Of a stretch of 64,000 nucleotides of DNA, positions 17,107-62,845 are shown piece by piece (positions within the stretch are counted from its first letter, which is position 1; every line of letters starts with the position of its first letter). The stretch comes from Claveliimonas bilis. GTDB taxonomy: Bacteria; Bacillota; Clostridia; Lachnospirales; Lachnospiraceae. Location: assembly GCF_030296775.1 (NCBI RefSeq), contig NZ_AP027742.1, positions 2,046,001 to 2,110,000 on the forward strand, written 5' to 3'. The position numbers were made by a program, and so were the translations under genes. Under the pieces are notes generated by a model. That model was not told where the DNA came from, did not search any database, and worked only from the letters and a program-made list of their open reading frames with translations.

Positions 17107-18202
17107 AATCCCTCTTCTCCTGCATCTGTGTGATCAGATCCTCCAGCTCATGCCTGCGTCCTTTTTTTTCCACCATCTGCATAGCTCCCATCTGCGCCGT
17201 ACAGTTTGCTTCAACCATGCACCAGCCTCTGTCCCTGGCAAAAGCCAGATCCCATCCGCAGTAATGGTTGTCCGGGATCATCATCGCTGCTTCCTTTACC
17301 ATTGCTACAGCTTCCTCCCACCGGGGAATCCCGAACCCCTTAAACTTCACTTTACTGTCCGGGTGGCACTCATAACTGTGACCTTTTTTATCAGCGCCGT
17401 CCGTATAGATCACTCCGCTGTCCGGATCGATCAGTGCGCTGATCCCGCCGGCGCTGAAATTATCTACAAAGCTGCCCTCCCTTCCCATTCTAAGAGAAGG
17501 ATGAAACAACCTGATCTCCGGCTCGTTTTTTTCGTTTCGGATAATAACAGTAGGAATGCGGAGTGTATTGACGGACCCTTCGTGTATGCGGGCCATCTCC
17601 CATCCCTGTTCGATTTTTTCTTCTATAACAGCGCCATATTTCCGGTAATGCTCGTGGGCGTCTTCTACCGAATCGTACATGGCGATATTTTCAATTCTCA
17701 CTGCCTTCCCAAATGCTGCATATACCGGTTTCACTACATACTCACCATGACGGCCGGCAAATTCCTGCAGCTTTTTCAAATTTTCCTGGGTCGGATCTTC
17801 ATTTTTTCTGATGCGGATGACTTCCCGCTTGTACATATTCTCAAATTTCTTATACGTCCTGTATTTATTTTCCAAAATGTCGGTGTTTTTTCGTTTATTC
17901 ATCCGGGGATAAAAACTCATTCGTATTCCTTCTGTAATGAAAGACGCCCGGTATTCCGGATCTTTCCCTTCATAATCATAGAGAAAGTATTCGCTGTAGT
18001 AAGAACCATATTTAAAAAGACTCCGGATCATATCCCTCTTCAGCCTGCGAAGATACCGACGGTCCTCAAAGGCTTCCGGGCCTTTGTACTTCTCAATGAT
18101 CTCATCCATCTTATCCCGTTTGCGCCAATAATAATTACCTTTGCGGTACCATGTCTCAAAACGGATTTTTTTGTAAATTTTTCTGCGATATTCCCGCAGC
18201 AT
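17087..18202 (-). CDS. Sugar-transfer-associated ATP-grasp protein (copy 4, first gene of the cluster)
   Basis: A 371-aa ATP-grasp protein. The ATG at 18200-18202 is preferred over an in-frame GTG 9 bp upstream because GAGGTGG then sits at the right distance. The core motifs are VVKPVYAAFGKAVRI, VIEEKIEQG, HEGSVNTLRIPTV, DNFSAGG and GWDLAFARDRGWCMVEANCTAQMGAMQ. The N-terminal 60 residues are very basic. It is the promoter-proximal gene of the glycan cluster and sits 105 bp downstream of baiE on the same strand, so read-through from the bai promoter is possible. The C-terminal metal-binding region ends in a short charged tail. Confidence 0.8.
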   Translation of the reverse strand: MLREYRRKIYKKIRFETWYRKGNYYWRKRDKMDEIIEKYKGPEAFEDRRYLRRLKRDMIRSLFKYGSYYSEYFLYDYEGKDPEYRASFITEGIRMSFYPRMNKRKNTDILENKYRTYKKFENMYKREVIRIRKNEDPTQENLKKLQEFAGRHGEYVVKPVYAAFGKAVRIENIAMYDSVEDAHEHYRKYGAVIEEKIEQGWEMARIHEGSVNTLRIPTVIIRNEKNEPEIRLFHPSLRMGREGSFVDNFSAGGISALIDPDSGVIYTDGADKKGHSYECHPDSKVKFKGFGIPRWEEAVAMVKEAAMMIPDNHYCGWDLAFARDRGWCMVEANCTAQMGAMQMVEKKGRRHELEDLITQMQEKRDCDEAVR

Positions 18203-18307: not shown

Positions 18308-18856
18308 TTATTTTGTTGTTTTTCTTTTTGCGATTTTCTTTTTCTTTGTAGCAGGGCGGAACATACTGATACGAACACGGTGTGTCGCATCTCTTTGGGA
18401 TGACTCCTCAAAAATACGGAGATATCCGGTATCCTGGATCAGCCACTGTCCGTCAATCTTTACATATTTATCTGTGTAAATAGCAGACCCCCTGATCTCC
18501 AGGCCTTCATAAGTATCGCCCTTATCAAAAAGCAGATCATCCTGCAGATACCATTTTCCATAGGCAACTGTATCGCTCTCAAACCAGATCTGCGGATTAT
18601 GTCCCTGATGCAGAGTGATTTCTGTTTTCGGCATCGTTTCTGCCAGATAATTTGTAATCTCTTTCGGACCGTGGAATACCAGTTTACCATCAGAGTATGA
18701 TGTCTCAATATCCGGCGCCATAGTGGCTTCCATCGCTTCCCAGTCCTTTGTATCCATTGCGCAGAAATATCTGCTCTTCAGTTCTTTAATTGCCTGTACA
18801 TCCTTCAGCTGCTGCACTTCTTTTTCCAATGCCTCAAGACGTTCTTCAATTGTCAT
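18308..18856 (-). CDS. baiE: Bile acid 7-alpha-dehydratase BaiE-like
   Basis: A 182-aa SnoaL-fold protein closely resembling BaiE, the enzyme that removes the 7-alpha hydroxyl of 3-oxo-delta-4 bile acid-CoA intermediates, the rate-limiting step of 7-dehydroxylation. The catalytic residues reported for BaiE are at the same positions: Y30 and D35 in YFCAMD, H83 in ITLHQGH; BaiE R146 corresponds to R147 in GYLRIFE after a one-residue insertion. The fold marks SYSDGKLVFHGPKEI and YTDKYVKIDGQW are also shared. It ends in a lysine-rich tail (about 16 residues, KKKKIAKRKTTK) that BaiE of C. scindens (about 166 aa) lacks. It starts 23 bp after baiCD behind GGAAAGGA. A BaiI-like or other substrate range cannot be excluded. 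Confidence 0.85.
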   Translation of the reverse strand: MTIEERLEALEKEVQQLKDVQAIKELKSRYFCAMDTKDWEAMEATMAPDIETSYSDGKLVFHGPKEITNYLAETMPKTEITLHQGHNPQIWFESDTVAYGKWYLQDDLLFDKGDTYEGLEIRGSAIYTDKYVKIDGQWLIQDTGYLRIFEESSQRDATHRVRISMFRPATKKKKIAKRKTTK

Positions 18857-18879
18857 AATATCCTGTCCTTTCCTTAGTA

Positions 18880-20802
18880 TTATACGCTCATTCCAACTGC
18901 GTATGCGTCGGCTGTCGCATCAATACCCATTCCTACTTTCTTCGCGTCACCAATTACATCATAAGCGATTCCCAATTCTTCACATTTTGCTTTCAGATCC
19001 TCTGTCTTCCGGGATGTCGTTCCTACAGAAATTACAAGAGTGTCAAAATGGCGGGTTTTCTCGCTTGTCTTTTTGAATTTATCTGTAAACTTATATGTAA
19101 TCTCATGGTCGCCGATGCTTGTGATATTGCTTCGGTTGCTCTTCTGGATCGTCTTGCCCGGATACTCGATATCAAGGAACATCGTACGCAGCATACCCAT
19201 CTTGTTTCCGACACGCTTTTTATCCATAATACGGACATCCTTCACGCCTTTGTTGATCAGATACTGGGCTGTCTCGCAGCCGATCAGACCACCGCCCAGG
19301 ATCAGCACTTCTCCTTTGGCCTCTGCTTTATCTGTCAGAATATCTTCTGCAGAAACAACGTCTGCTCCATCAATTCCCGGAATATCCGGTTTTACATATT
19401 CAGAGCCGGTTGCTATGATGACATGGTCCGGCTTTACTTCTTCAATCAGCTCAGGTGTTACTTTTGTACCAGTCTTGATCTCAATACCTTTCTTCCTGCA
19501 CTGCTCAATTTCCCATTCTACAGCGGCAGCAAATTCTTGCTTCTTAGGTGCTTTTCCTGCCAGCACAAATCTTCCTCCCGGATTTTCCGCTGCTTCGTAG
19601 ATCGTTGGATTGTGTCCCCGCGCTTTCAGAAATTCTGCTGTAACCAGACCGCCGATACCTCCGCCGATCACCATAACATTCTTTGGCGTTTCAGCTTTTG
19701 GAAGTCCTTTGTATTCCAGACAAAGCATAGGATTTCTCGTACAGGTAATATGTTTCGCATTCGGATCGATAACCTTGTCATAACATCCTTCTGTACATCC
19801 GATACAGCGGCGGATATCCTCCTCGCGGCCTTCTTTTGCCTTATTGCACCACTGTGGATCAGCCAGCTGTCCTCTTCCAACCGCGATCATATCGATCTTT
19901 CCTTCGCGGATCAGTTCATCTGCAAGTCCCGGCATATTGACACGTCCCACTCCGATAACAGGAATGTGAATACCTTTTTTTATTGCTGCAATATTATCCA
20001 TATTAAATCCCGGCTCCAAATTATAAGGAGGAACCTCATAAACAGTTGCAAGACTGCGGGCATTCCCTCTGGAAAGATCCATGGCATCCACGCCGGCTTC
20101 TTCTGCCCAGTTGATAAACTGGATGGTTTCTTCTACTGTTGTAACCTTTGGAAGCATCTCATCAATGGCGTCGATACGCATGATCAAAGGCATATCATCC
20201 GGCATATTTGCACGCATTTCCCGGATTACCTCCAGACTGAAGCGGCAGCGGTTTTCCAGGCTCTGATTGCCGTACTCATCTGTTCTCTGATTCAAAGAAG
20301 GATTCATAAATTCATGAGGCAGATAAGTGTGCGCTCCGTGAAATTCCAGCGCATCAAATCCGGCTTCCACGGCAAATTTTGCCGCCTGCCCGTACTGTTT
20401 GATAATTTCATGAATACGCTCTACTGTAAGATTGTCCGGTGTTTCCAGCTTATTCGTTTTATCAAAAAACTCCTGGGGAACAAATCCTCCATGCCAGATC
20501 TGCACAGCAGCCTTTCCACCGTTTTCATGGATCGCATCTACAATCTTCTTCAGCTCATCTCTGTGGTGCTCATTATAAAGGCCAAGATACAGATAGGCGT
20601 GACATTCCGGACAGATTGTAGCAATCTCCACAATATTCAGTCCGCAGCCTCCTGCTGCGATCGCTCCATGATATCCTGTCAGGTCTTCCGCTACATCATG
20701 TTTGTTTTTGGCCATCTTTGTATTCATCCCCGGGAGAACTACTCTGTTTTTCAGCTCCAGTCCTCTCAGTTTAATCGGTGAAAACAATGCGTCATAACTC
20801 AT
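18880..20802 (-). CDS. baiCD: BaiCD-like 3-oxo-delta-4 bile acid oxidoreductase
   Basis: A 640-aa flavoenzyme of the 2,4-dienoyl-CoA reductase/old yellow enzyme group. An FMN TIM barrel covers about residues 1-330 (HGAHTYLPHEFMNPSLNQRTDEYG), then a 4Fe-4S cysteine set (CIGCTEGC and a later C in ITCTRNP), then an FAD/NAD(P) domain (VMVIGGGIGG, LILGGGLIGCETA). The N-terminus MSYDALFSPIKLRGLELKNR matches BaiCD of C. scindens as remembered, which is about 639 aa; this favours the ATG at 20802 over one at 20814 that has no spaced Shine-Dalgarno. BaiCD interconverts 3-oxo and 3-oxo-delta-4 CoA intermediates. It is the first gene of a two-gene unit with baiE and is divergent from baiH. Confidence 0.87.
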   Translation of the reverse strand: MSYDALFSPIKLRGLELKNRVVLPGMNTKMAKNKHDVAEDLTGYHGAIAAGGCGLNIVEIATICPECHAYLYLGLYNEHHRDELKKIVDAIHENGGKAAVQIWHGGFVPQEFFDKTNKLETPDNLTVERIHEIIKQYGQAAKFAVEAGFDALEFHGAHTYLPHEFMNPSLNQRTDEYGNQSLENRCRFSLEVIREMRANMPDDMPLIMRIDAIDEMLPKVTTVEETIQFINWAEEAGVDAMDLSRGNARSLATVYEVPPYNLEPGFNMDNIAAIKKGIHIPVIGVGRVNMPGLADELIREGKIDMIAVGRGQLADPQWCNKAKEGREEDIRRCIGCTEGCYDKVIDPNAKHITCTRNPMLCLEYKGLPKAETPKNVMVIGGGIGGLVTAEFLKARGHNPTIYEAAENPGGRFVLAGKAPKKQEFAAAVEWEIEQCRKKGIEIKTGTKVTPELIEEVKPDHVIIATGSEYVKPDIPGIDGADVVSAEDILTDKAEAKGEVLILGGGLIGCETAQYLINKGVKDVRIMDKKRVGNKMGMLRTMFLDIEYPGKTIQKSNRSNITSIGDHEITYKFTDKFKKTSEKTRHFDTLVISVGTTSRKTEDLKAKCEELGIAYDVIGDAKKVGMGIDATADAYAVGMSV

Positions 20803-20825
20803 TTTCCAAACCATCCTCTCTTTTC

Positions 20826-20856
20826 TTAATACAGATCTTTCATCTGTATCCTCCTT
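20826..20856 (-). promoter_or_regulatory. Strong RBS, five-codon mini-ORF and hairpin in the baiCD leader
   Basis: On the minus strand AAGGAGG (20856-20850) is followed after 6 nt by ATG AAA GAT CTG TAT TAA (20843-20826), encoding MKDLY. The same bases form a perfect 8-bp hairpin, ATACAGAT / ATCTGTAT, at 20829-20849. The mini-ORF stops 11 bp before the upstream candidate ATG of baiCD. It could be a leader peptide or an RNA hairpin that controls baiCD translation; neither is proven. Confidence 0.5.
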
Positions 20857-20947
20857 CTGGCAGATACGGGAATTACCTGTCAGAAAATGTTTGAATATAA
20901 TTCATAGTATTTCATTTCAGTATTTAGTTTTATAATGGTGATGAACA

Positions 20948-20965
20948 GATTACATAGCTGTAATC
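20948..20965. promoter_or_regulatory. Perfect 18-bp palindrome, candidate operator of the bai genes
   Basis: GATTACA (20948-20954), 4-bp spacer TAGC, TGTAATC (20959-20965). The two 7-bp arms are exact inverted repeats. It lies about 150 bp upstream of baiCD and 290 bp upstream of baiH. AraC proteins usually bind direct repeats, so another regulator may use it. Confidence 0.55.
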
Positions 20966-21254
20966 CTTAAAAGTTGTTTAAATTTTAACACTATCTTTAC
21001 ATTCCTGCAGGAGCAAAAATTTGATTATTATATACAAACAATGTACAAAATTTCGATTTTTAATATCACTATTGTCTAATTGCCAAGAGTTCTCTCTGAA
21101 TTTTGTAGTGATTTTTAAATAAATGTCCTGTTTTACAGAAATACTTTCTCACGATTTTTTTTGAAAATGTAGCTTGATTGACAAAAAAATGTGCATTCTC
21201 CCTCTTTCAGTTCGTTTATTATTTTATTAAAACAAACGTTCAGGAGGAAGTTTT

Positions 21255-23246
21255 ATGATAACAGATATGAAAAATTCAAAGCTTTTCAGTCCTATTCAGA
21301 TTGGAAGAACCACTCTGAAGAACAGAGTGGCAATGGCTCCTATGAGTATGGATTATGAAGCAGCAGACGGATCCGTCCCGAAAAAGCTGGCGGATATTTT
21401 TGTACGGCGCGCCGAGGGCGGCACCGGCTATATTGTAATCGACGCTGTAACTGTCGACAGCAAATATCCTTATATGGGAAACACGACATCTCTGGATAAA
21501 GACAGTCTTGTTCCACAGTTTAAACAGTTTGCAGAACGCGTCAGGGAGGCAGGCAGTGTTCTGATTCCTCAAATCATCCATGCAGGTCCCGAATCTATTT
21601 GCGGATACCGTAAGATCGCACCTCTCGGACCTTCTGCCAATGTAAACGCCAACTGTCATGTCAGCCGTCCTGTTACGGTAAAAGAAATCCAAAAGATCGT
21701 AAAACAGTACGGTCAGGCTGCACGCCGGGCGGAAGAAGCCGGATGCGGCGGCGTCAGTCTTCACTGCGCTCACGCCTATATGCTTCCCGGTTCTTTCCTG
21801 TCTCCTCTCCGCAACAAACGAATGGATGAATACGGCGGAGGTCTGGACAACCGCGCAAGATTTATTCTGGAAGTCATTGAAGAAGTCCGGAAAAATGTAA
21901 GCCGGGATTTTCCGATCTTCCTGCGTATTTCCGGCGACGAACGTATGATCGGAGGCAACTCTCTCGAAGATATGTTGTACCTGGCTCCCAAATTTGAAGC
22001 GGCCGGAGTCGATATGCTTGAAGTTTCCGGCGGTACCCAGTATGAAGGACTGGAGCATATCATCCCCTGCCAGAACAAGAGCATCGGTGTAAATGTATAT
22101 GAAGCATCTGAAATCAAAAAAGTAGTAAATATCCCTGTTTTTGTTGTTGGAAAGATCAATGATATCCGCTATGCAGCAGATATTGTAGAGCGCGGTCTAG
22201 TAGACGGTGTATCTATGGGACGTCCGCTTCTTGCAGATCCTGATCTGTGCAAAAAAGCCTATGAAAACCGGTTTGATGATATCACGCCATGCGCAAGCTG
22301 CGGCGGAAGCTGTATCACCCGCAGCGAGGCAAGTCCACAGTGCAGATGCCATATCAATCCGAGAGTCGGAAGAGAATATGATTTTCCGGAAGTTCCGGCT
22401 GAAAAATCCAAGAAGGTACTGGTGGTGGGCGCCGGTCCCGGAGGTATGATGGCTGCTGTCACAGCTGCAGAAAGAGGACACCAGGTTACTGTCTGGGAAG
22501 CTGATAAAAAAATCGGCGGACAGCTGAATCTGGCTGTTGTTGCCCCCGGCAAACAGGAAATGACCAAATGGATGGTGCACTTAAACTATCGCGCTAAAAA
22601 AGCCGGTGTAACTTTTGAGTTTGGCAAAACGGGCACTGTAGAAGCAGTTCGGGAATTTGCTCCTGACGCCGTGATCGTAGCTACCGGCGCAAGACCTTTG
22701 ATCCCGCCGATCAAAGGAACACAGGATTATCCGGTCCGTACAGCTCACGATTTCTTACGCGGCAAGATTGTCATTCCGCGAGGACGTGTCTGCGTATTGG
22801 GAGGCGGCGCCGTTGCCTGTGAGACTGCAGAAGTTCTTCTCGAAAATGCACGTCCTAATTCCTTTACCAGGGGATTTGAAGCCAGCATCGGTGATGTGGA
22901 AGTCACAATGGTGGAGATGCTGCCCCAGCTTCTCACCAATGTCTGCGCGCCGAACCGTACTCCAATGGTACGGAAGCTCAAGAGCAAAGGTGTGGATATT
23001 AACGTAAATTCCAAAATCCTGGAAGTAACAGATCACGACGTAAAAGTACAAAGAGCAGACGGCACGGAGGAATGGCTCCGCGGATTTGATTATGTACTTT
23101 TCGGCCTCGGTTCCCGAAATTACGATCCGCTTTCCGAAGAACTGAAGACATTTATTCCTGAAGTATATGCAATCGGCGACGCGGTGAGAGCCCGCCAGGC
23201 AAGCTTCGCTATGTGGGAAGGTTTTGAGGCCGCTTACAAATTGTAA
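21255..23246 (+). CDS. baiH: BaiH-like NADH:flavin oxidoreductase
   Basis: A 663-aa FMN/4Fe-4S/FAD oxidoreductase. The OYE-type barrel (KNRVAMAPMSMDYEAADGSV; LHCAHAYMLPGSFLSPLRNK) is followed by the cysteine cluster CASCGGSC...CRCHINP near residues 345-375 and the dinucleotide domain VLVVGAGPGGMMAAVTAAERG. The length and long stretches of sequence agree with BaiH of C. scindens (661 aa) as remembered, more closely than with BaiCD. BaiH acts on delta-4/delta-6 unsaturated bile acid intermediates in the reductive arm of 7-dehydroxylation. It has its own strong ribosome site AGGAGG and a terminator right after, so it is a single-gene unit, unlike the C. scindens operon where it lies downstream of baiG. 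Confidence 0.88.
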   Translation: MITDMKNSKLFSPIQIGRTTLKNRVAMAPMSMDYEAADGSVPKKLADIFVRRAEGGTGYIVIDAVTVDSKYPYMGNTTSLDKDSLVPQFKQFAERVREAGSVLIPQIIHAGPESICGYRKIAPLGPSANVNANCHVSRPVTVKEIQKIVKQYGQAARRAEEAGCGGVSLHCAHAYMLPGSFLSPLRNKRMDEYGGGLDNRARFILEVIEEVRKNVSRDFPIFLRISGDERMIGGNSLEDMLYLAPKFEAAGVDMLEVSGGTQYEGLEHIIPCQNKSIGVNVYEASEIKKVVNIPVFVVGKINDIRYAADIVERGLVDGVSMGRPLLADPDLCKKAYENRFDDITPCASCGGSCITRSEASPQCRCHINPRVGREYDFPEVPAEKSKKVLVVGAGPGGMMAAVTAAERGHQVTVWEADKKIGGQLNLAVVAPGKQEMTKWMVHLNYRAKKAGVTFEFGKTGTVEAVREFAPDAVIVATGARPLIPPIKGTQDYPVRTAHDFLRGKIVIPRGRVCVLGGGAVACETAEVLLENARPNSFTRGFEASIGDVEVTMVEMLPQLLTNVCAPNRTPMVRKLKSKGVDINVNSKILEVTDHDVKVQRADGTEEWLRGFDYVLFGLGSRNYDPLSEELKTFIPEVYAIGDAVRARQASFAMWEGFEAAYKL

Positions 23247-23281
23247 ATAATATAGACTGTAAAAGACATTCTACTCCTGGA

Positions 23282-23326
23282 AAAACTGCAGATGCCATGT
23301 AGTATCTGCAGTTTTTTCTATTTTTA
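23282..23326 (+). terminator. Terminator of baiH
   Basis: AAAACTGCAGAT (23282-23293) pairs perfectly with ATCTGCAGTTTT (23304-23315), followed by a T-rich tract. Confidence 0.85.
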
Positions 23327-23374
23327 CCTTTCTTCGTTTCAAAATCTGAAAATCCAAAAAATTTATGTGCCTCA

Positions 23375-23403
23375 TTGATTTTTCTTTTTCAATATGCTAT
23401 CCT
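23375..23403 (+). promoter_or_regulatory. Possible promoter of the AraC-type regulator
   Basis: TTGATT (23375-23380) and TATCCT (23398-23403) with a 17-bp spacer, about 65 bp before the GTG start. The -10 matches only 4 of 6 positions. Confidence 0.4.
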
Positions 23404-23468
23404 TTTCGCATACTTGGAGTGTCATATTTCGACATTTGCCACAGAAATCAGAGAGGTGACGTATTATT

Positions 23469-24746
23469 GTGAACAAAAAGATCTATCCCTTATGCGAACC
23501 ACCAAGAAACGGCATATTCTGCGGTCCTGACAAGTATCTGAAACTTCAGGAATATACCGTCAGTACTGAAATGTGTCCGATCATGGAGTTTGACAGCTAT
23601 TTTATTCTTGTAAAAAAGGGGCGTGGCATTTTTATTATAAATGGGGAAAAATTTGCAGTGGAGCCCGGCTGCATATCATGGATCCAATGCTCGCAAGTTC
23701 TTACAATCTGTCCGGATTTTAATGAACAACTTCAGCTATGGGTCTGTTCTTATGATTATCAGCTTTTAAACTATTATTCTTTCAGCAGAATATCTTTTAA
23801 TGAAGAACAGGAAATTGTCAACAGTCTTCCTGTAATCGGTCCGGCTGGCTCCGAGGTGGAACAGATCATCCACTTATTCGATCAGTTCCAGAAACTAGGT
23901 AAGAAGAAATCTTACGGATCAGCTATCCTGCGCAGCTCTTTTCTCCGTAAGATCGAACTACTCTATAACCGTGTGGCACAGAGCGCAAAGGCGAGCTACC
24001 AGTTTGAGTCTTTCCCCTTGAGCCGGAAGATCAGCCTGTATATCGCTACCCACAGTAATGCGCCCCTGACTGTATCGGACGTAGTCGATAATGTATGCCC
24101 TTCTTCAAGTGAAGCGTCTCTTAATCATACGCTTCTTGTCGTTACCGGGCTGAATTTCGGCCAGTATCTGAACTGGATGCGGCTGGCGCATGCAATGGCA
24201 TATTTTCTTTATGATAATCTGCCTTTTAACTACATATCTTCGATTTCCGGTTTTAATAAAGAGATTTCATTTTTCCGTCATTTCAAAGCCATAACAGATA
24301 TGACGCCCCTGGCTTACCGGGAACAGATGCTAAGCAACGGTAAAGACGGACGGATCTATCGGGGAACGATAATCAGTGAACCTCTTCTGTCTGCCATCAC
24401 TTATCTATATGACAATATGACTGAACCTATTGATGCAAATATTATGACCCGGGATCTTTACACTACAAAAAATATCCTGCGCAGTCAGTTTAAAGAAAAA
24501 CTGAATGCCAGCTACAAAGACATTCTGCTTCAGTTCCGGGTGCGCTATGCAGAATCTTTGCTGGCTACTACTAACCTGCCCATTCTGGATATTGCTATTG
24601 AATCCGGTTTTGGTTCCGACCGCACGATGACGCGGGTATTTTTCAATATTAACGGCCTTTCCCCTGGCGAATTCAGAAAACGGCAGCGTCGGGGGGAACA
24701 GGACGAAAAAAGCATCCCGCCTAAAACCATAAAAGAAAGCAGATGA
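23469..24746 (+). CDS. AraC-family regulator with two tandem HTH domains
   Basis: A 425-aa transcription factor with a GTG start behind GAGAGGTG (23451-23458). An N-terminal cupin-like ligand domain lies at about 25-105 (YFILVKKGRGIFIINGEKFAVEPG). Two AraC-type DNA-binding modules follow. The first (about 205-300) is degenerate, with ISGFNKEISFFRHFKAITDMTPLAYR; the second (about 310-405) is canonical, with ILDIAIESGFGSDRTMTRVFFNINGLSPGEFRKR. AraC proteins normally have one such module. Its place between baiH and baiA suggests it is the bile-acid responsive regulator of this locus, comparable in role to the AraC/XylS-type bar genes reported upstream of the C. scindens bai operon. It overlaps the next gene by 4 bp. 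Confidence 0.8.
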   Translation: MNKKIYPLCEPPRNGIFCGPDKYLKLQEYTVSTEMCPIMEFDSYFILVKKGRGIFIINGEKFAVEPGCISWIQCSQVLTICPDFNEQLQLWVCSYDYQLLNYYSFSRISFNEEQEIVNSLPVIGPAGSEVEQIIHLFDQFQKLGKKKSYGSAILRSSFLRKIELLYNRVAQSAKASYQFESFPLSRKISLYIATHSNAPLTVSDVVDNVCPSSSEASLNHTLLVVTGLNFGQYLNWMRLAHAMAYFLYDNLPFNYISSISGFNKEISFFRHFKAITDMTPLAYREQMLSNGKDGRIYRGTIISEPLLSAITYLYDNMTEPIDANIMTRDLYTTKNILRSQFKEKLNASYKDILLQFRVRYAESLLATTNLPILDIAIESGFGSDRTMTRVFFNINGLSPGEFRKRQRRGEQDEKSIPPKTIKESR

Positions 24747-25342
24747 TGACTATGCAAAAGGATTCCACATCAAAAAGTACACAGAATAAACAAAAATCTT
24801 CCCCCAGAAATAATTCTACGTTTTCCGGTGCACATGATTATTTTTCCAACAACGTGCTTCCACAGGATATTCATGCGCGCACACGGCATATTAAAGCTCC
24901 GACATCTTACATTAACAATCAGGAGCAAACTTTTCTTCTGGTTCGTTCGGGAACAGGAACGATATATGTAAACGGAATGGGGTACAAACTGAAGCCGAAC
25001 ACTTTAATTTATTTAAATCCCTTTCACCGCTACCGCCTGCTTCCCTCCAGCCAGGAGGAACTTACCATTGCAGAGGCGCGCATCAACAGCAGTACCTACG
25101 TATATATGATCGCGAATCCATATCTGAAATATGAGCATATGGTTGTTCCATCGCAGCCGCCGATCGCCTGTCTCGAAGGGCTGCCGGCCCAGATTGCCAA
25201 TGATTCCATGGATGCCCTCTTAAGCGAAACAGAAAACCATTCCAAAGACAGTATCCATTTTTGCTTCTGTTATATTATGGACTTTTTTGGCTTGATCACT
25301 GATTGTATTCCTAAAAGTTATCTGTTCCCTTCAGAAAAATAA
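24743..25342 (+). CDS. Cupin-only AraC-type sensor partner without HTH
   Basis: A 199-aa protein whose ATGA start overlaps the regulator stop; a second in-frame ATG is at 24752. A cupin-like beta-barrel similar to AraC N-terminal domains is visible at about 55-130 (FLLVRSGTGTIYVNGMGYKLKPNTLIYLNPFHRYRL). The first 45 residues are Ser/Asn/Lys-rich. The protein ends where an AraC protein would go on into its HTH region, and no HTH is found in any frame before the terminator at 25386. It may be a truncated AraC gene, or a working co-sensor that binds ligand or dimerises with the double-HTH regulator. I recognise no closer homologue. Confidence 0.6.
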   Translation: MMTMQKDSTSKSTQNKQKSSPRNNSTFSGAHDYFSNNVLPQDIHARTRHIKAPTSYINNQEQTFLLVRSGTGTIYVNGMGYKLKPNTLIYLNPFHRYRLLPSSQEELTIAEARINSSTYVYMIANPYLKYEHMVVPSQPPIACLEGLPAQIANDSMDALLSETENHSKDSIHFCFCYIMDFFGLITDCIPKSYLFPSEK

Positions 25343-25385
25343 TATAAAGGGAGCAAAACAGAATCACTATCACCAGAAAATTATG

Positions 25386-25429
25386 AAAAGAGTCATTGTT
25401 AAAAATATATTTTTAACAATGACTCTTTT
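25386..25429 (+). terminator. Terminator after the regulator pair
   Basis: A 19-bp perfect stem: AAAAGAGTCATTGTTAAAA (25386-25404) with TTTTAACAATGACTCTTTT (25411-25429), 6-nt loop. T-rich on both ends, so it works in both directions. It isolates the baiA-B-G-F unit. Confidence 0.88.
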
Positions 25430-25674
25430 GCATTTTCACCGGTTTCCCCTTCTTCAAGTTCTATACGTCTGTCAAATTGACTATAAATTCTTACTTTTTG
25501 TCTCTTTGTTTTAGCATAAAGCCACAACTTTCCAACCGTTGCATGATCAAAAATATGTTAAAATATCGACAGTCATTGGATGACACATTGGTGATGGACT
25601 TTCGAGGTGACGGGAAAGCTTCGAAAACAAAAAGAAATTCACACATATTTACATTCAGGAAAGGGGATCAAACA
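25430..25674 (+). promoter_or_regulatory. Upstream region of the baiA-B-G-F unit
   Basis: A 245-bp gene-free stretch that must carry the promoter of baiA. Candidates are weak: TTGACT at 25477 without a spaced -10, TATAAA at 25482, and TAAAAT near 25559 behind TTGCAT at 25539 with a short 14-bp spacer. A weak promoter needing an activator would fit control by the AraC-type protein. An in-frame upstream extension of baiA crosses this region without a ribosome site and is not believed. Confidence 0.45.
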
Positions 25675-26442
25675 ATGTTTGAAAACGAATTTGAAGGAAA
25701 AGTTGTACTGGTTACTGGTGGTACCACAGGCATTGGATATGCCACTGTAAAATCTTATCTGAAAGCAGGAGCAAAAGTTTATTTCCTCGGCAAAGAAGGA
25801 GAAGATGTAAGCGCACAGCTTGAGGAACTCAAATCCATCAATCCAAATTATGAATTTAAACACAAAGCAATCAACCTGTGCGATTACAAAGCTGCACAGG
25901 AACTGTATGCTGAAATTGAAGAAATGTGGGGAAAACTGGATATTTTAGTAAACAACGCCGGTGTTGACAGCAGCCTTCCTATCCACAAAATGAAACAGGC
26001 GCAGTGGGATTATGTTATGGATACCAATATTAAAAGTATGTTCAACATGACAAAATATGCCATCAAAATGCTGAAAAAGACAAAGGGCTGTATCGTAAAT
26101 ACTGCTTCTGTAGCAGGTATTTATGGTTCCGGATGCGGATGCCCATATCCGGTATCCAAAGGCGGTGTTATCGCTTTCACACAGTCTATGGCATGGGAGC
26201 AGGCTTATGCCGGAATCCGCTGCAACGCTGTTGCACCGGGTGTTATCAACACAAAGCTTCTTGACACTGTTCCGCCATTTGCTAAGAAAAACCTTGCACA
26301 GGGTATCCCTCTTCGCTATATTGGCGAACCTCAGGTTATCGCTGATGCGATTCTTTTCCTGTCTTCCAGCGCCGCTTCCTATATCACAGGCGTTACCCTG
26401 CCTGTAGACGGCGGATACAGACCGGCAAATGTCGCTAATTAA
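25675..26442 (+). CDS. baiA: BaiA-like short-chain 3-alpha-hydroxysteroid dehydrogenase
   Basis: A 255-aa SDR enzyme. The ATG at 25675 follows AGGAAAGGGG and fits the usual SDR length. The cofactor motif TGGTTGIG (14-21), NNAG (93-96), N118 and the catalytic triad S145-Y158-K162 (IVNTASVAGIYGS then YPVSK) are present; VAGIYGS and the C-terminal VDGGYRP recall BaiA2 of C. scindens. BaiA oxidises the 3-alpha-hydroxyl of bile acid-CoA in the first oxidative step and may reverse it at the end. At the cofactor-selecting position after beta-2, where BaiA2 has Glu42 (FGE), this protein has Lys40 (LGK), which may change NAD/NADP preference. It is the first gene of the rightward unit. Confidence 0.78.
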   Translation: MFENEFEGKVVLVTGGTTGIGYATVKSYLKAGAKVYFLGKEGEDVSAQLEELKSINPNYEFKHKAINLCDYKAAQELYAEIEEMWGKLDILVNNAGVDSSLPIHKMKQAQWDYVMDTNIKSMFNMTKYAIKMLKKTKGCIVNTASVAGIYGSGCGCPYPVSKGGVIAFTQSMAWEQAYAGIRCNAVAPGVINTKLLDTVPPFAKKNLAQGIPLRYIGEPQVIADAILFLSSSAASYITGVTLPVDGGYRPANVAN

Positions 26443-26498
26443 GCGATATACATATAGAAAAAACTCGAATCTGGGAGAGAAATGAGAGGTTAAATACT

Positions 26499-28034
26499 GT
26501 GTGTACATCACGCTTCAATATTTTTAATCATAGCAACAATAGTTTTTTTACTCCTGGAACTCAGTTGGCTAATATCGCAAAAGCAAAACCAGATGATCCT
26601 GCGATCGTATACATTTCCCCTAAGAATACAGAGTCCGTCATGACCTGGCGGGCTCTGGAGGAATTATCCAATCGAATTGCATGGTATCTTATGGATCAGG
26701 GAATCCGATCAGGTAAAAGTGTAGTTGTAGCGCTCCCTAACATTCCCACACATATTGCTCTTGCATTTGGCATTTGGAAAGCAGGTGCATGCTATGTTCC
26801 TGTATCCGACAGGCTTCCCAGAAGGAATCTTCTTGAAATTTGCGGATGTGTCTCACCTTCTCTTGTTGTGACTAACCGCTGGAAGCCCAGCAAATATTTC
26901 AGTCTGAGTTCAACCAAATTAAAAGAAGTATGTCAGGAATATCCGGCTGAAATGCCGCCCGATACTCTTGCTGTACCCAATCTTGCAAACTGTACCGGCG
27001 GAACGTCAGGAAAAACCAAGGTTGTCCTTCAAAATATGCCCGCCGGAGGAAGTGATGAAGGGCTTCGGGCATGGTTTGCCATGACCGGTATGAGATTTGA
27101 AATGCGTCAGCTTCTGGCTGGGCCACTCTTTCACGGTGCCCCTCACTCTGTCGCCTTTAATGGGCTTTTTTGCGGAAATACATTGTATATGCCCTCCTGT
27201 TTCGACCAGAGAGCAATCGTAGCTTTAATCAAAAAACACCAGATCGAGTACGTACAGTTGGTTCCAACGCTTATGCAGCGCATTATCAAGATGCCGGATT
27301 TTAATCCGGAGGATCTTGGCAGCCTGAAAGTTTTATGCCATACCGGAGGAGTCTGTTCTCCAGATCTTAAGAAGGAATGGTTCCGCATTCTTTCACCGGA
27401 GAAAATATATGAAATCTATTCCATGACAGAATGTGTGGGGATCACCTCTATCCGTGGGGATGAATGGCTGATCCATGAAGGCAGCGTTGGAAAAATGCCT
27501 TGCGGAAGTATTGCGATCCGTGACGACAACGGGCAGGATCTTCCTGTCGGTCAGGCCGGTAATATCTATATGTCCTGGACAGAAAATGCACCGGAAATCG
27601 GATTTTTAAATTCTCCTCCGCCGGAAATCTCCAAAGACGGTTTTCGGAGTGTGGGCGACATCGGATATATCGATAACGATGGTTATCTGTATTTTGTCGA
27701 CAGGCGCAGCGATATGATCGTAACCGGAGGAGAGAATGTATTTGCCAATGAGGTAGAAACTGTATTAAAAAAATCAAAAAAAGTTTTAGATGTGGTTGTT
27801 GTCGGTATTCCCGACAAGGAATGGGGGCATCGCATCCACGCTATCGTTGAGACCAAGGAGCCTGTAAGCGATAAAAGCCTGATACGGCTTGCCCTTGATT
27901 ATCTGCCCCCTTATAAGATTCCAAAATCTTTTGAATTTGTGGATGAAATTCCACGAAACGCAAACGGTAAAGTCGTACGCAGTACGCTTGTAGAGCAGTA
28001 TATTAAAAACAATTCAGATTCAAATGGAGACTAA
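26499..28034 (+). CDS. baiB: BaiB-like bile acid CoA ligase
   Basis: A 511-aa AMP-forming acyl-CoA synthetase. The GTG at 26499 is used, 9 nt after GAGAGG. Adenylation motifs: CTGGTSGKTKV (P-loop like, about 168), YSMTECVGITSIRGDEW (about 305-325), SVGDIGYIDNDGYLYFVDRRSDMIVTGGENVFANEVE (core to hinge), and the C-terminal lysine in NANGKVVRS. LFHGAPHSVAFNGLF, CHTGGVCSPDLKKEW and IRGDEW agree with BaiB as remembered (about 520 aa). BaiB activates primary bile acids as CoA thioesters after import. It overlaps nothing and is followed by the transporter gene after 4 bp. In C. scindens baiB is the first gene of the operon, so the order differs here. Confidence 0.83.
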   Translation: MCTSRFNIFNHSNNSFFTPGTQLANIAKAKPDDPAIVYISPKNTESVMTWRALEELSNRIAWYLMDQGIRSGKSVVVALPNIPTHIALAFGIWKAGACYVPVSDRLPRRNLLEICGCVSPSLVVTNRWKPSKYFSLSSTKLKEVCQEYPAEMPPDTLAVPNLANCTGGTSGKTKVVLQNMPAGGSDEGLRAWFAMTGMRFEMRQLLAGPLFHGAPHSVAFNGLFCGNTLYMPSCFDQRAIVALIKKHQIEYVQLVPTLMQRIIKMPDFNPEDLGSLKVLCHTGGVCSPDLKKEWFRILSPEKIYEIYSMTECVGITSIRGDEWLIHEGSVGKMPCGSIAIRDDNGQDLPVGQAGNIYMSWTENAPEIGFLNSPPPEISKDGFRSVGDIGYIDNDGYLYFVDRRSDMIVTGGENVFANEVETVLKKSKKVLDVVVVGIPDKEWGHRIHAIVETKEPVSDKSLIRLALDYLPPYKIPKSFEFVDEIPRNANGKVVRSTLVEQYIKNNSDSNGD

Positions 28035-28038
28035 AACT

Positions 28039-29313
28039 ATGGAGACTAAAAAATTTAAAGGCTGGGGAGTACTCGTTGCAGCGTTCATCCTGTCATTTAT
28101 ACCCACAGCCATTATGAGCAACTGCTTTTCCCTGTTCATGGCGCCGGTTTGTGCTGATCTCGGCTTCAGTACAACAAGCTGGTCAATGGTAAGTCTGATC
28201 TCCTCTTTTGCAAGTGCGATCGGAGCTATGATCATTGCAGGAATGTACCAGAAGAAAAATATGAAACTCATCATGATGATCGTAACGATCGGAACAAGTC
28301 TATGCTGGGTAGTTGCAACCTTTTGTACTGCTATCTGGCAGTTCTACCTGATATTCGGCCTGTCAAATATTTTTATGGCCGGTCTGACACAGCTTCCGAT
28401 TTCCATGCTTGTCACTGCATGGTTTGAAGACCGGCGCGCAACCATGATGTCGATCGCTTATGCCGGAGGCGGCCTTGGCGGTACAGTATGGTCGCCTGTT
28501 CTTACAAAATTTATTTCTTCCGGAACTGACGGATGGAAAACCGCAATGCTGTTTGCAGCTGTTACAGTCGGCGTCATCACCGTCCTTACTGCCCTCTTCC
28601 TGGTAAAACGTTCTCCTGCAGAGTATGGCACAGAACCATACCGCACCGGAAACAAAACAGACCAGAAGGACAGCCGTCAGGAAAAGGCAGCCGAGTGGAT
28701 CGGCGTATCTAAAAAAGTTGCCACAAAATCCAGCGCATGGTACTGCGTCCTTGGCGTTGTGATCTGTGTCGGTATACTGGCTGCAGGAGTTACAACTCAT
28801 GTTCCGAACTTTGTCACATCCATCGCGCAGGACGGCGGAACTCTTCAGGGAACAGTATTGTCCGTTTATTCCGTTGTTTCCATTTTTGGTATGCTGGGCG
28901 GCGGCGTGTTGATGGACAAACTCGGCATCCGCAAGACCGTTCTTTGTGCAGCTGTACTGGTTATCGTCGGGCTGGCAAGTCTGGTGGCTTACTCTGTAAC
29001 CGGAATTACAGTGGTCGTATTTGGATATGCATTCTTCGCACTGGCTATGTTCCTTCCGAAAGTTCTGCCGGCAGTTTTGATGTCCAAAGTATTCGGAACA
29101 AAAGATTATGCCGGAATTTATGCTACTGCTAATCTCTTCTTCCTGATCGGATCTGCTTTCGGCGCTGTGCTGACCTCTATTATCCAGGGGATTGCAGGTT
29201 ATGGAATGACCTGGATCTTCTACATGATCGTAGCTGTTTTAATGTTCTTCTTTGTATCCGGCGCCATCAGCGGAAGTGAGAAGCTTCAGGCAAAATATCC
29301 GCAGGGTGATTAA
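28039..29313 (+). CDS. baiG: BaiG-like MFS bile acid transporter
   Basis: A 424-aa major facilitator superfamily protein with about 12 hydrophobic helices (first at about 8-30, FILSFIPTAIMSNCFSLFMA). A cytoplasmic loop rich in charged residues (about 195-220) separates the two halves. The ATG at 28039 is preferred because GGAGA precedes it by 8 nt; an in-frame ATG at 28024 lies inside baiB and has no ribosome site. The first codons are a small duplication of ATGGAGACTAAAA. BaiG of C. scindens imports unconjugated primary bile acids with protons; the same role is inferred from the company of baiA, baiB and baiF. Confidence 0.78.
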   Translation: METKKFKGWGVLVAAFILSFIPTAIMSNCFSLFMAPVCADLGFSTTSWSMVSLISSFASAIGAMIIAGMYQKKNMKLIMMIVTIGTSLCWVVATFCTAIWQFYLIFGLSNIFMAGLTQLPISMLVTAWFEDRRATMMSIAYAGGGLGGTVWSPVLTKFISSGTDGWKTAMLFAAVTVGVITVLTALFLVKRSPAEYGTEPYRTGNKTDQKDSRQEKAAEWIGVSKKVATKSSAWYCVLGVVICVGILAAGVTTHVPNFVTSIAQDGGTLQGTVLSVYSVVSIFGMLGGGVLMDKLGIRKTVLCAAVLVIVGLASLVAYSVTGITVVVFGYAFFALAMFLPKVLPAVLMSKVFGTKDYAGIYATANLFFLIGSAFGAVLTSIIQGIAGYGMTWIFYMIVAVLMFFFVSGAISGSEKLQAKYPQGD

Positions 29314-29376
29314 ACAGCAGCTATTTTACGTTAATATTTATTTACTATACTACTTTTTAAGAAAGGGGAACTATTC

Positions 29377-30747
29377 ATGAAACAAATCGACAACAAATTA
29401 ACTCAAAAATTTGATGAATATCCGCAGTTTGGTGTTCTTCAGGGCGTTAAGGTATTTGTAACTGGTACCAACATCGCCGGACCATTTGCCGGATGCCTCA
29501 TGGCTGAAATGGGAGCACAGGTCCTTCAGGCCGAATCTCCTTCCATCGCCTGCCAGACAAGAGGTACACTGTCGTGGTCTCAGAACCACCGTAACGAATA
29601 TTCCATTACGATCAATACAGCAAAGGCTTCCGGACGTAAAATCTTCTATAAATGTGTCGAATGGGCAGATATCTGGATCGAGGCCGGTAAGCCGGGATCT
29701 TACGCAAAACGCGGTATTACAGATAAATCCTGCTGGGAACACAATAAAGCCCTTACAATTGTCCATGTATCAGGATACGGACAGTTTGGGCCATCTAAGG
29801 ACAAACCGTCCTACGATGTGTCCGGACAGGCAATGGGCGGATATATGTACCTGAACGGACCTTCGCCCACTTCCAGCCCTCTGAAAGTAAATCCGTACCT
29901 GTCAGACTATGTGACCGCATACAATGCCTGCATCGTCGCTCTCTCCGGCTATATCAACGCACAGCGCACCGGCGAGGGAGATTCCTGTGACGTGGCACAG
30001 TATGACACAATGTTCCGTCTGCTGGACAACTATCCGGCAAGGTGGTTCAACAACGGCTATCCGAAGCAGGGCGAGCCTGTTCCGGAGCGTACAGGAAACA
30101 AGAGCGACATGGCGGCATGCTTCTCCTTCTACGATACAAAGGACGGCAATACTATCTTTGTCGCTATCACAGGACAGGGCCCTGTTACCCGCGGATATCC
30201 GATCATCGGTATGGGAAAACCGGGCGTGGCAAAAGATATTCCAAAAGACTGTACCGGATTCCCTCTCTTTGACCCAAGGGGACAGAAAGCCGACAAACTC
30301 CTTACCGAGTTCTGTGCTTCCCACACCTGCGACGAGCTGGAAGAAATCTTCAACAAGGCAGGTATCCCCTGCCAGAGAGCTTACGGACCTGCTGATATCG
30401 AAAAAGATCCGCAGTATGAAGCACGTGAGAACCTGGTGGAATGGGAAGATCAGTGCTTCGGCCGCATGAAAGGCATCGGCATTACCAATATCTTCAAGAA
30501 GAATCCTTCTCAGATCGTTGCTTCCGCTCCCTGCTTCGGCGAGCACAACAGGGAAGTTCTTCAGTACTTTGGCTATACCGACGAGGAGATCGACAAACTC
30601 TACAAAAATAAAGACATTGTAACATGGACTCCTGCCGAGACAGCAAAACGGAAATTATTCGTAGAATGGGGATTCTTCTGGGATCCGGAACGTCAGGCAA
30701 AACGGATCGGACTGGAATATCCGCCGAAAAAGAAAACAAAGAAATAG
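29377..30747 (+). CDS. baiF: BaiF-like bile acid CoA transferase (class III)
   Basis: A 456-aa class III CoA-transferase. GSNIAGP-like GTNIAGPFAGCLMAEMGA at the N-terminus, VHVSGYGQFGP near 130, and the catalytic aspartate D177 in NPYLSDYVT, which aligns with Asp169 of CaiB-type enzymes. The GESVDVAQY-like segment GDSCDVAQYD and the C-terminal FKKNPSQI also fit BaiF. In C. scindens BaiF moves CoA from secondary to primary bile acids, saving the ATP of the ligase step. It is the last gene of the unit, 63 bp after baiG behind GAAAGGGGA. It is about 30 residues longer than BaiF (about 426 aa) and ends in a lysine-rich tail (PPKKKTKK), as BaiE does here. Confidence 0.85.
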   Translation: MKQIDNKLTQKFDEYPQFGVLQGVKVFVTGTNIAGPFAGCLMAEMGAQVLQAESPSIACQTRGTLSWSQNHRNEYSITINTAKASGRKIFYKCVEWADIWIEAGKPGSYAKRGITDKSCWEHNKALTIVHVSGYGQFGPSKDKPSYDVSGQAMGGYMYLNGPSPTSSPLKVNPYLSDYVTAYNACIVALSGYINAQRTGEGDSCDVAQYDTMFRLLDNYPARWFNNGYPKQGEPVPERTGNKSDMAACFSFYDTKDGNTIFVAITGQGPVTRGYPIIGMGKPGVAKDIPKDCTGFPLFDPRGQKADKLLTEFCASHTCDELEEIFNKAGIPCQRAYGPADIEKDPQYEARENLVEWEDQCFGRMKGIGITNIFKKNPSQIVASAPCFGEHNREVLQYFGYTDEEIDKLYKNKDIVTWTPAETAKRKLFVEWGFFWDPERQAKRIGLEYPPKKKTKK

Positions 30748-62531: not shown

Positions 62532-62845
62532 CAAATAAAAAACCGCCCCAAACCAAAGGTTTGAGGCGGTAATAAACTTTATTATCGCGGTACCACTCAA
62601 ATTGACGAAGCGTCCACTTTTCTCATGTACTAACATACACTCCTGATTGATAACGGGTTCGGTTCCCGACAAACCATACTCACCATTCCCGGTTTTCAGG
62701 CCGCCCTCGAAAGTCCATTCAACTATCCGTCCGGTACAGCACTTCCACCATCTGCCGCTCTCTTTCACCTTACAATGATAATCTACTTCTCTTTCTCATC
62801 GGTTTTGCTTATATGTATCTGATGGATATTACTTTACCTCTCTCA
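62532..62845 (-). promoter_or_regulatory. T-box riboswitch, tryptophan type
   Basis: On the minus strand the T-box motif GAGTGGTACCGCG (62598-62586) is followed by the terminator ACCGCCTCAAACC / GGTTTGGGGCGGT (62570-62541) and TTTTTT. Upstream lie the AGTAG-type element, AGAGAG, GGTGGAAG distal loop and GTTGAATGGACTTTCGAGG, in which TGG is the best specifier codon. When uncharged tRNA(Trp) pairs, the antiterminator forms and the transporter is expressed. The specifier is read by pattern, not by folding. Confidence 0.88.

Follow-up and report, generated by a model that had tools for sequence, protein, structure and literature searches.

A split bile acid 7alpha-dehydroxylation locus in Claveliimonas bilis, of a type already described in strain c-25

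Known bai loci

The reference arrangement of the bai genes is the operon of C. scindens ATCC 35704, where they form one gene run with baiI within it, adjoined by homologues of barA and barB. A split arrangement was published by Song et al. in 2021 for strain c-25 ('Eubacterium sp. c-25'; PMC8623032), with divergent baiCDE and baiH, a barA-barB pair, a baiA2BGF unit, and baiI elsewhere in the genome. According to the same paper, c-25 makes deoxycholate from cholate, and cholate induces baiB 219-fold, baiCD 292-fold, and baiH 14-fold in qRT-PCR.

The locus presented here lies in the window, a stretch of 64,000 nucleotides from the genome of another strain of the same species, Claveliimonas bilis (the two genomes measure 3,111,590 and 3,042,110 bp). 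It follows c-25 in all the features of arrangement named above. The DNA of the two strains is 99.42% identical over 18,856 bp; their BaiE, BaiCD, BaiH, and BaiB proteins are 100% identical, and the barA-like and barB-like proteins are 99.8% and 97.5% identical. The split layout is thus real, but has been known since 2021 from another strain of the same species. Since the arrangement, conversion, and induction have been published for c-25 (PMC8623032), the reading of this locus as one for bile acids is both right and already known.

Layout of the locus

The initial annotation was correct on gene order and strands, on the 440-bp gap between the divergent genes, on the AraC-type regulator pair, and on the two hairpins, judging by the list of open reading frames, the alignment, and a hairpin scan (Table 1). 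The reading frames of all nine genes are open. As listed, the baiA frame begins at TTG 25477; the true start is most likely ATG 25675, because in c-25 the extra N-terminal part aligns as a separate piece in another frame. For baiCD, an alternative start is possibly the ATG at 20802, downstream of a better-spaced GAGAGG.

Table 1. Features of the bai locus, in window positions
Feature	Positions	Strand	Description and basis
baiE	18308..18856	-	bile acid 7alpha-dehydratase, SnoaL_4 fold; phmmer, conserved residues, identity to c-25
baiCD	18880..20814	-	flavin/Fe-S oxidoreductase; NCBIfam, clade with C. scindens-type BaiCD
baiCD-baiH divergent region	20815..21254		exactly 440 bp; blocks conserved in L008-L010 (alignment)
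baiH	21255..23246	+	flavin/Fe-S oxidoreductase; identity to C. scindens and c-25, clade
Intrinsic-terminator-like hairpin 3' of baiH	23279..23318	+	scan and alignment
barA-like AraC/XylS regulator	23469..24746	+	two HTH_18 stretches (Pfam)
barB-like partner	24743..25342	+	199 aa; homology to C. scindens counterpart
Hairpin 3' of barB	25386..25429		20 pairs, AT-rich, folds on both strands
baiA-type short-chain dehydrogenase (SDR)	25675..26442	+	best match of C. scindens BaiA2 in the genome
baiB	26499..28034	+	bile acid CoA ligase; NCBIfam NF038344
MFS transporter in baiG position	28024..29313	+	not orthologous to C. scindens BaiG
baiF	29377..30747	+	family III CoA transferase; Pfam PF02515

Because genes diverge and hairpins stand between the units, the locus is not a single polycistronic unit of the C. 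scindens type, with which it nevertheless shares the enzyme set. Its description as rearranged holds relative to C. scindens, but the order itself is widespread: eight of the nine fetched loci with BaiE identity of at least 74%, c-25 and CAG:103 included, have the split layout. Besides c-25, these comprise Sporofaciens musculi (L009), two MAGs with contigs from genomes of the same genus (L008, L010), CAG:103 (L013), the nearly identical RUG332/RUG13615 loci (L011, L012), and UBA1701 (L016). In all of them, as in the window, baiE-baiCD diverges from baiH and the order barA, barB, baiA, baiB is kept; unlike the window, L016 has an additional SDR gene upstream of baiH. The position of baiI varies. 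It lies between baiH and barA in L008-L010, whereas it is absent there in the window and c-25; in L013 it is found 1.8 kb after baiE, with a similar placement in L011. Judged by eye on the alignment, a hairpin similar to that following baiH in the window follows baiI in L008-L010, and the hairpin after barB has changed its outer stem sequence there while keeping the pairing.

BaiE-type genes are rare. They were found in 4 of 11 genomes of the genus and 5 of 397 in the family sample (both counts including the window genome and c-25), in 1 of 392 in the order sample, and in 2 of 391 in the class sample, where one is a weak match of 30%; the window genome is a positive in the last two as well.

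Evidence for a bile acid substrate

The best explanation, with a probability of about 0.96, is a working bile acid 7alpha-dehydroxylation locus, probably made of four transcription units: baiCD-baiE leftward, baiH rightward, barA-barB, and baiA-baiB-MFS-baiF. Following the established pathway, BaiB would form cholyl-CoA, and BaiA together with BaiCD would oxidize ring A, giving the 3-oxo-delta4 form. Removal of the 7alpha-hydroxyl by BaiE would come next, then reduction of the rings to deoxycholate by BaiH, BaiCD, and BaiA; BaiF would transfer CoA.

The resemblance to Bai proteins, seen at the level of sequence, is not due to chance, given a phmmer E-value of 1.6e-62 between BaiE and the solved BaiE 4l8p, a BaiB score of 868.8 bits, where the curated cut-off is 650 (NCBIfam NF038344), and a BaiCD score of 805.4 bits, just under the curated NCBIfam cut-off of 825. 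BaiE keeps Y30, D35, Y54, H83, D106, and R146, the active-site residues by the numbering and roles of the BaiE structure papers. Within the BaiE branch, drawn from a tree whose bootstrap had not settled, 13 of the 17 rows hold all six residues and L018 differs at two, while L014, L035, and L037 can be judged only in part, as residues 30 and 35 (and in L035 and L037 also 54) fall outside their rows, most likely because of trimmed starts. The protein comparison and phylogeny that had been proposed as a check place BaiCD and BaiH each in one clade with the C. scindens-type proteins, with support of 100/100 in both cases.

Identity to the C. scindens ATCC 35704 proteins ranges widely, from 83% for BaiH through 54% for BaiCD, 53% for BaiE, 48% for BaiB, and 43% for BaiF (43-45% to C. 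scindens BaiF) to 37% for BaiA. The latter shares no more than 37-38% with C. scindens BaiA2, which has 11 matches in the genome; among these it ranks first, with 174.7 bits (144.4 for the runner-up). A search of solved structures returned nothing for BaiA at a strict E<=1e-60. The top solved-structure matches are carnitine CoA-transferases for BaiF and 2,4-dienoyl-CoA reductase for BaiH. A search with BaiF retrieves no other protein of its own genome, and in C. scindens ATCC 35704 its sole match is BaiF, at 45%; no second CoA transferase came up there, and so the search gave no lead to baiJKL.

The caution of the initial annotation, which left room for another steroid or a terpenoid as the substrate, can be weighed against this evidence. 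That the locus serves mainly such a compound, bile acid conversion being a side activity or the work of other genes, is very improbable. Gene clusters with OYE, SDR, SnoaL, and MFS members and no close BaiE do exist (L059, L038), and Arp et al. report that steroid-hormone 5beta-reductases form a clade distinct from BaiCD and that C. scindens BaiCD reduces progesterone to a limited extent (PMC12238238). However, BaiE is matched by bile acid dehydratases of solved structure and has the compared residues intact, BaiB exceeds its curated cut-off, and c-25, with identical BaiE, BaiCD, BaiH, and BaiB, converts cholate and induces three of the genes with it (PMC8623032). The BaiCD and BaiH clades, the BaiE residues, and the published physiology of c-25 all support a bile acid as the substrate. 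Points that weigh against a working bile acid locus are the BaiCD score under its cut-off together with a higher-scoring paralogue, the low identity of BaiA, the lack of a common operator above shuffled controls, promoter-like sites at chance level, and, in one genome of the genus, a BaiI-like gene unaccompanied by a BaiE match.

Transporter and displaced baiI

Counterparts of the six Bai enzymes are present, as had been claimed, but the transporter is a different MFS protein, one that is not orthologous to the BaiG of C. scindens. It scores 181.5 bits on the NCBIfam bile_salt_MFS model, below the cut-off of 400. The C. scindens baiG product belongs to another MFS family, its top NCBIfam match being a DHA2 model, below cut-off; used as a query against this genome at E<=0.001, it hits a single site elsewhere (E=1.9e-8) and misses the MFS gene of the locus. 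Song et al. give an identity of 22% for BaiG (PMC8623032). The MFS protein may still import the substrate.

The locus likewise lacks baiI, but the genome as a whole does not: at a distance of 0.57 Mb it encodes a BaiI homologue, with 49% identity to the C. scindens protein, adjacent to a BaiCD paralogue (the pair lies at genome positions 1,493,629-1,496,216). This paralogue outscores the BaiCD of the locus (973.8 against 805.4 bits). The flanks of the displaced baiI are unlike between the window strain and c-25 within the stretches compared. A BaiI homologue is present in the same 5 of 397 family-sample genomes as the BaiE-type gene. Separately, one genome of the genus carries a 30% BaiI-like gene and has no BaiE match.

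The loss of baiI from the site that it occupies in L008-L010, shared by the window and c-25, and the lack of a BaiG orthologue at the locus could be taken as signs of decay, leaving the pathway incomplete. This is the least probable reading of all, since the nine frames are open and a BaiI homologue is kept elsewhere; moreover, baiI is stated to be unnecessary for 7alpha-dehydroxylation in vitro, and the deoxycholate produced by c-25 already contradicts a decayed pathway (PMC8623032).

Transcription and regulation

Between positions 18000 and 31500 there are 21 terminator-like sites, against a mean of 12.4 (sd 3.6) in shuffled sequence. Promoter-like sites in the same interval show no excess over chance (28, against 24.7 with sd 5.4), and one of these, no commoner than in shuffles, lies in the 440-bp gap on the minus strand (21056-21027).

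That the arms of the pathway are set separately, as the initial annotation suggested, is consistent with the published induction, in which baiB and baiCD rise about 15-20 times as much as baiH (PMC8623032). There is no clean split into oxidative and reductive transcripts, because both arms use baiCD and baiA.

BarA and BarB may sense a bile acid and drive the promoters. The barA-like protein is 36% identical to the homologue adjoining the C. scindens operon. The barB-like protein matches its C. scindens counterpart at 24% (E=1.7e-12), and Pfam and NCBIfam return nothing for it at E<=0.001, with no recognised DNA-binding domain. To look for a common operator, the divergent region (read on both strands) and the regions upstream of barA and baiA were compared as profiles built from the window and L008-L010. 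In none of the six pairs, at 20 or 30 columns, did the best score rise above the highest of 60 column-pair shuffles in this ungapped test, which short or variably spaced half-sites would escape. A TTTTTGT..TGT likeness noticed by eye upstream of baiCD and baiA ranks third for that pair and is within chance. Across the whole window, the only Rfam matches at gathering scores are a T-box and a tRNA; neither lies in the locus, which shows no structured RNA.

Origin of baiH

Identity of the window proteins to the three C. scindens-type loci and to the five CAG:103-type loci (L011-L014, L016) runs in opposite directions for the two oxidoreductases: 82-83% against 72-75% for BaiH, and 54-56% against 66-80% for BaiCD. 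BaiE (53-55% against 74-79%) and, with no counterparts seen in L014, BaiB (48-51% against 69-70%) and barA (33-36% against 57-61%) show the same direction as BaiCD. With groups named after the first tree was seen, the BaiCD grouping is firm and its alternative rejected (p-AU 7.5e-07), whereas for BaiH a single clade of split loci is not rejected (p-AU 0.227), with a support of only 58/57 for the favoured grouping.

A mosaic origin of baiH is an unproven lead from these sequence comparisons. A rather unlikely scenario would have a C. scindens-type baiH-baiI cassette swapped into the Lachnospiraceae split loci, after which the C. bilis baiI moved to a second site beside the BaiCD paralogue, or gave way to a copy there; the two genes at that site might then make up a distinct arm that handles 7beta-hydroxy (urso-type) bile acids or else other steroids.

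Significance

Deoxycholate formers shape bile acid signalling in the host and resistance to C. difficile. Both the layout and how abundant a related type is in the human gut have already been published. Surveys that seek the C. scindens operon or apply the curated BaiCD cut-off can miss the split type; in this genome that cut-off excludes the BaiCD gene of the locus and accepts its paralogue.

Conserved split layout and published counterpart

The split bai locus of Claveliimonas bilis is real and already known, and its initial annotation was correct in the main. The nine genes were found as open reading frames where that annotation had placed them: baiE and baiCD run leftward and baiH rightward, separated by a gap of exactly 440 bp, while two overlapping regulator genes (barA and barB) lie 3' of baiH and are followed by baiA, baiB, an MFS gene and baiF. 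The order had been called rearranged, and it does differ from that of C. scindens, but the same layout (baiE-baiCD divergent from baiH, then barA, barB, baiA and baiB) is present in eight of the nine fetched loci with a BaiE of at least 74% (L008-L016), including that of C. bilis c-25 (L015); in this count baiG is only partly visible (L008-L010, L015), and the fetched stretches end before baiF. In the ninth, L014, an SDR gene precedes baiH, and nothing in the 2,974 bp that remain up to the contig end matches the regulators or baiB. An additional SDR gene upstream of baiH also occurs in L016, one of the eight. The nine were taken from 16 loci returned, the other seven having a BaiE of at most 43%; the two looked at among these, L017 and L018, hold no such locus.

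The genome that holds the window, a single contig of 3,111,590 bp, is of the same species as strain c-25 (NZ_AP024845.1): 18,856 bp of the window align at 99.42% identity, and BaiE, BaiCD, BaiH and BaiB are 100% identical as proteins, with barA at 99.8% and barB at 97.5%. This strain was described as 'Eubacterium sp. c-25' by Song et al. 2021 (PMC8623032), who reported that it forms deoxycholate from cholate at a lower rate than C. scindens and yields more 7-oxo-deoxycholate. They also described the clusters baiA2BGF and baiCDE, with baiH apart, barA and barB before baiA2BGF and baiI far off, and noted that Sporofaciens musculi and two Dorea strains have nearly the same gene order. Since the layout, deoxycholate formation and induction by cholate are all published there, the finding is a rediscovery.

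Features outside the nine-gene layout, with the revised baiA start
Feature	Position	Strand	Remark
Likeliest baiA start	window 25675 (ATG)		moved after comparison with strain c-25
T-box leader	window 62559-62808	-	Rfam RF00230, 101.4 bits
BaiCD paralogue directly followed by BaiI homologue	genome 1,493,629-1,496,216 (L024:7630-10217)		paralogue 40% to locus BaiCD
BaiI homologue	genome 1,495,662-1,496,213		49-51% to C. scindens BaiI
Choloylglycine-hydrolase-family gene	genome 2,227,405-2,228,379 (L048:1426-2631)		PF02275, 249 bits, above cut-off
Additional SDR gene between baiCD and baiH (CAG:103-type loci)	L016:6691-7422; L014:5051-5809		40-42% to baiA
BaiE-like protein, Myxococcota MAG	L017:10001-10471		43%
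SDR, SnoaL, OYE and MFS cluster, same genus	L059:8922-13515		candidate
SDR, SnoaL, OYE and MFS cluster, another family	L038:3571-~8500		candidate

Identity of the enzymes

Family-search support differs in strength from one gene name to another. BaiB scores 868.8 bits, above the curated NCBIfam cut-off of 650, and the BaiCD of the locus 805.4 bits, slightly under its cut-off of 825. BaiE has no NCBIfam match; it matches three solved BaiE chains (E = 1.6e-62 to 5.3e-61) and in the alignment keeps Y30, D35, H83, D106 and R146, which we take to be the active site. Phylogeny bears out the naming of BaiCD and BaiH, each of which groups with C. scindens-type proteins in a clade of 13 rows (branch support 100/100), apart from the three other OYE proteins of the genome. 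BaiE joins the BaiE proteins in a tree with poorly resolved inner forks, a BaiI split at 86/90 and a bootstrap that had not settled.

The name baiG, on the other hand, does not hold: the MFS gene is a stand-in for C. scindens BaiG and not its orthologue. It resembles the NCBIfam bile-salt MFS model, below cut-off, while the best NCBIfam match of C. scindens BaiG is a DHA2 efflux model, also below cut-off. As a query in the window's genome, C. scindens BaiG finds only another place (E=1.9e-8). The BaiG-like transporter of c-25 has 22% identity to BaiG (Song et al. 2021, PMC8623032).

The BaiE-like protein of the Myxococcota MAG keeps all six residues compared, but the 20 kb surrounding its gene contain nothing that matches BaiCD or BaiH. 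The clusters in L059 and L038 have a likeness of about 25-33% to bai parts and lack a close BaiE (L059 has no BaiE match); they are candidate pathways for other steroids or terpenoids. The choloylglycine-hydrolase-family gene reaches 220 bits with the NCBIfam model for bile salt hydrolase, short of the cut-off of 350, and could encode a bile salt hydrolase or a penicillin amidase.

Transcription units and regulation

Hairpins 3' of baiH and of barB, together with gaps of 222 and 332 bp, suggest four transcription units: baiCDE, baiH, barAB and baiABGF. Read by eye in the alignment, the pairing of the barB hairpin is apparently kept in relatives despite a changed outer stem. The split had been thought to let the oxidative and reductive arms be set separately. 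In the established pathway, BaiB performs activation, BaiA and BaiCD oxidation, BaiE dehydration, and BaiH, BaiCD and BaiA reduction (PMC10936602); since both arms use baiCD and baiA, the division is not a neat one. The effect of the split is instead to free baiH. In c-25, cholate induces baiB 218.8-fold, baiCD 291.8-fold and baiH 13.9-fold, induction of the first two being about 15-20 times that of baiH (PMC8623032).

No operator common to the upstream regions stood above shuffled controls, and promoter-like sites were no commoner than in shuffles. For this reason we only infer that BarA and BarB may control the locus, given where their genes lie and given the homologues (36% and 24% identity, respectively) next to the C. 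scindens operon.

The displaced BaiCD-like/BaiI pair and the history of baiH

The initial annotation reported baiI as absent. It is indeed missing from the locus, but a homologue lies elsewhere in the genome and groups with BaiI proteins (96/93). In S. musculi (L009) and two MAGs (L008, L010) baiI sits between baiH and barA, whereas the window and c-25 lack that stretch and a hairpin follows baiH. BaiE and BaiI occur in the same five of 397 genomes of the family sample; within the genus, four of 11 genomes carry BaiE, each together with BaiI, and a fifth has a BaiI-like gene (30%) but no BaiE. Neither the stretch before the pair (L024:1-7447, with transposase genes) nor the roughly 3.9 kb after it (L024:10218-14086) aligns to the fetched 18 kb of c-25 (L060), and the pair thus lies in a strain-variable region. 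With the BaiCD model the paralogue scores 973.8 bits, above the curated cut-off, more than C. scindens BaiCD (892.4) and the locus BaiCD (805.4), so annotation with this model would name the paralogue BaiCD and leave out the gene of the locus.

In BaiCD, BaiE, BaiB and barA the locus is nearer to the CAG:103-type split loci than to the C. scindens type, while for BaiH the reverse is found. Kim et al. 2022 (PMC9426597) assigned Dorea sp. AM58-8 to BaiE cluster 6; CAG:103 belongs to their cluster 1, an Oscillospiraceae group that accounts for nearly 85% of the baiE genes in human gut data. Song et al. (PMC8623032) explained the high BaiH identity by an essential role. Set against the CAG:103-type loci, it suggests instead that a baiH(-baiI) cassette may have been exchanged, a lead that the tree test does not settle. 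What is still of interest is the displaced BaiI/BaiCD-like pair, together with the odd history of baiH.
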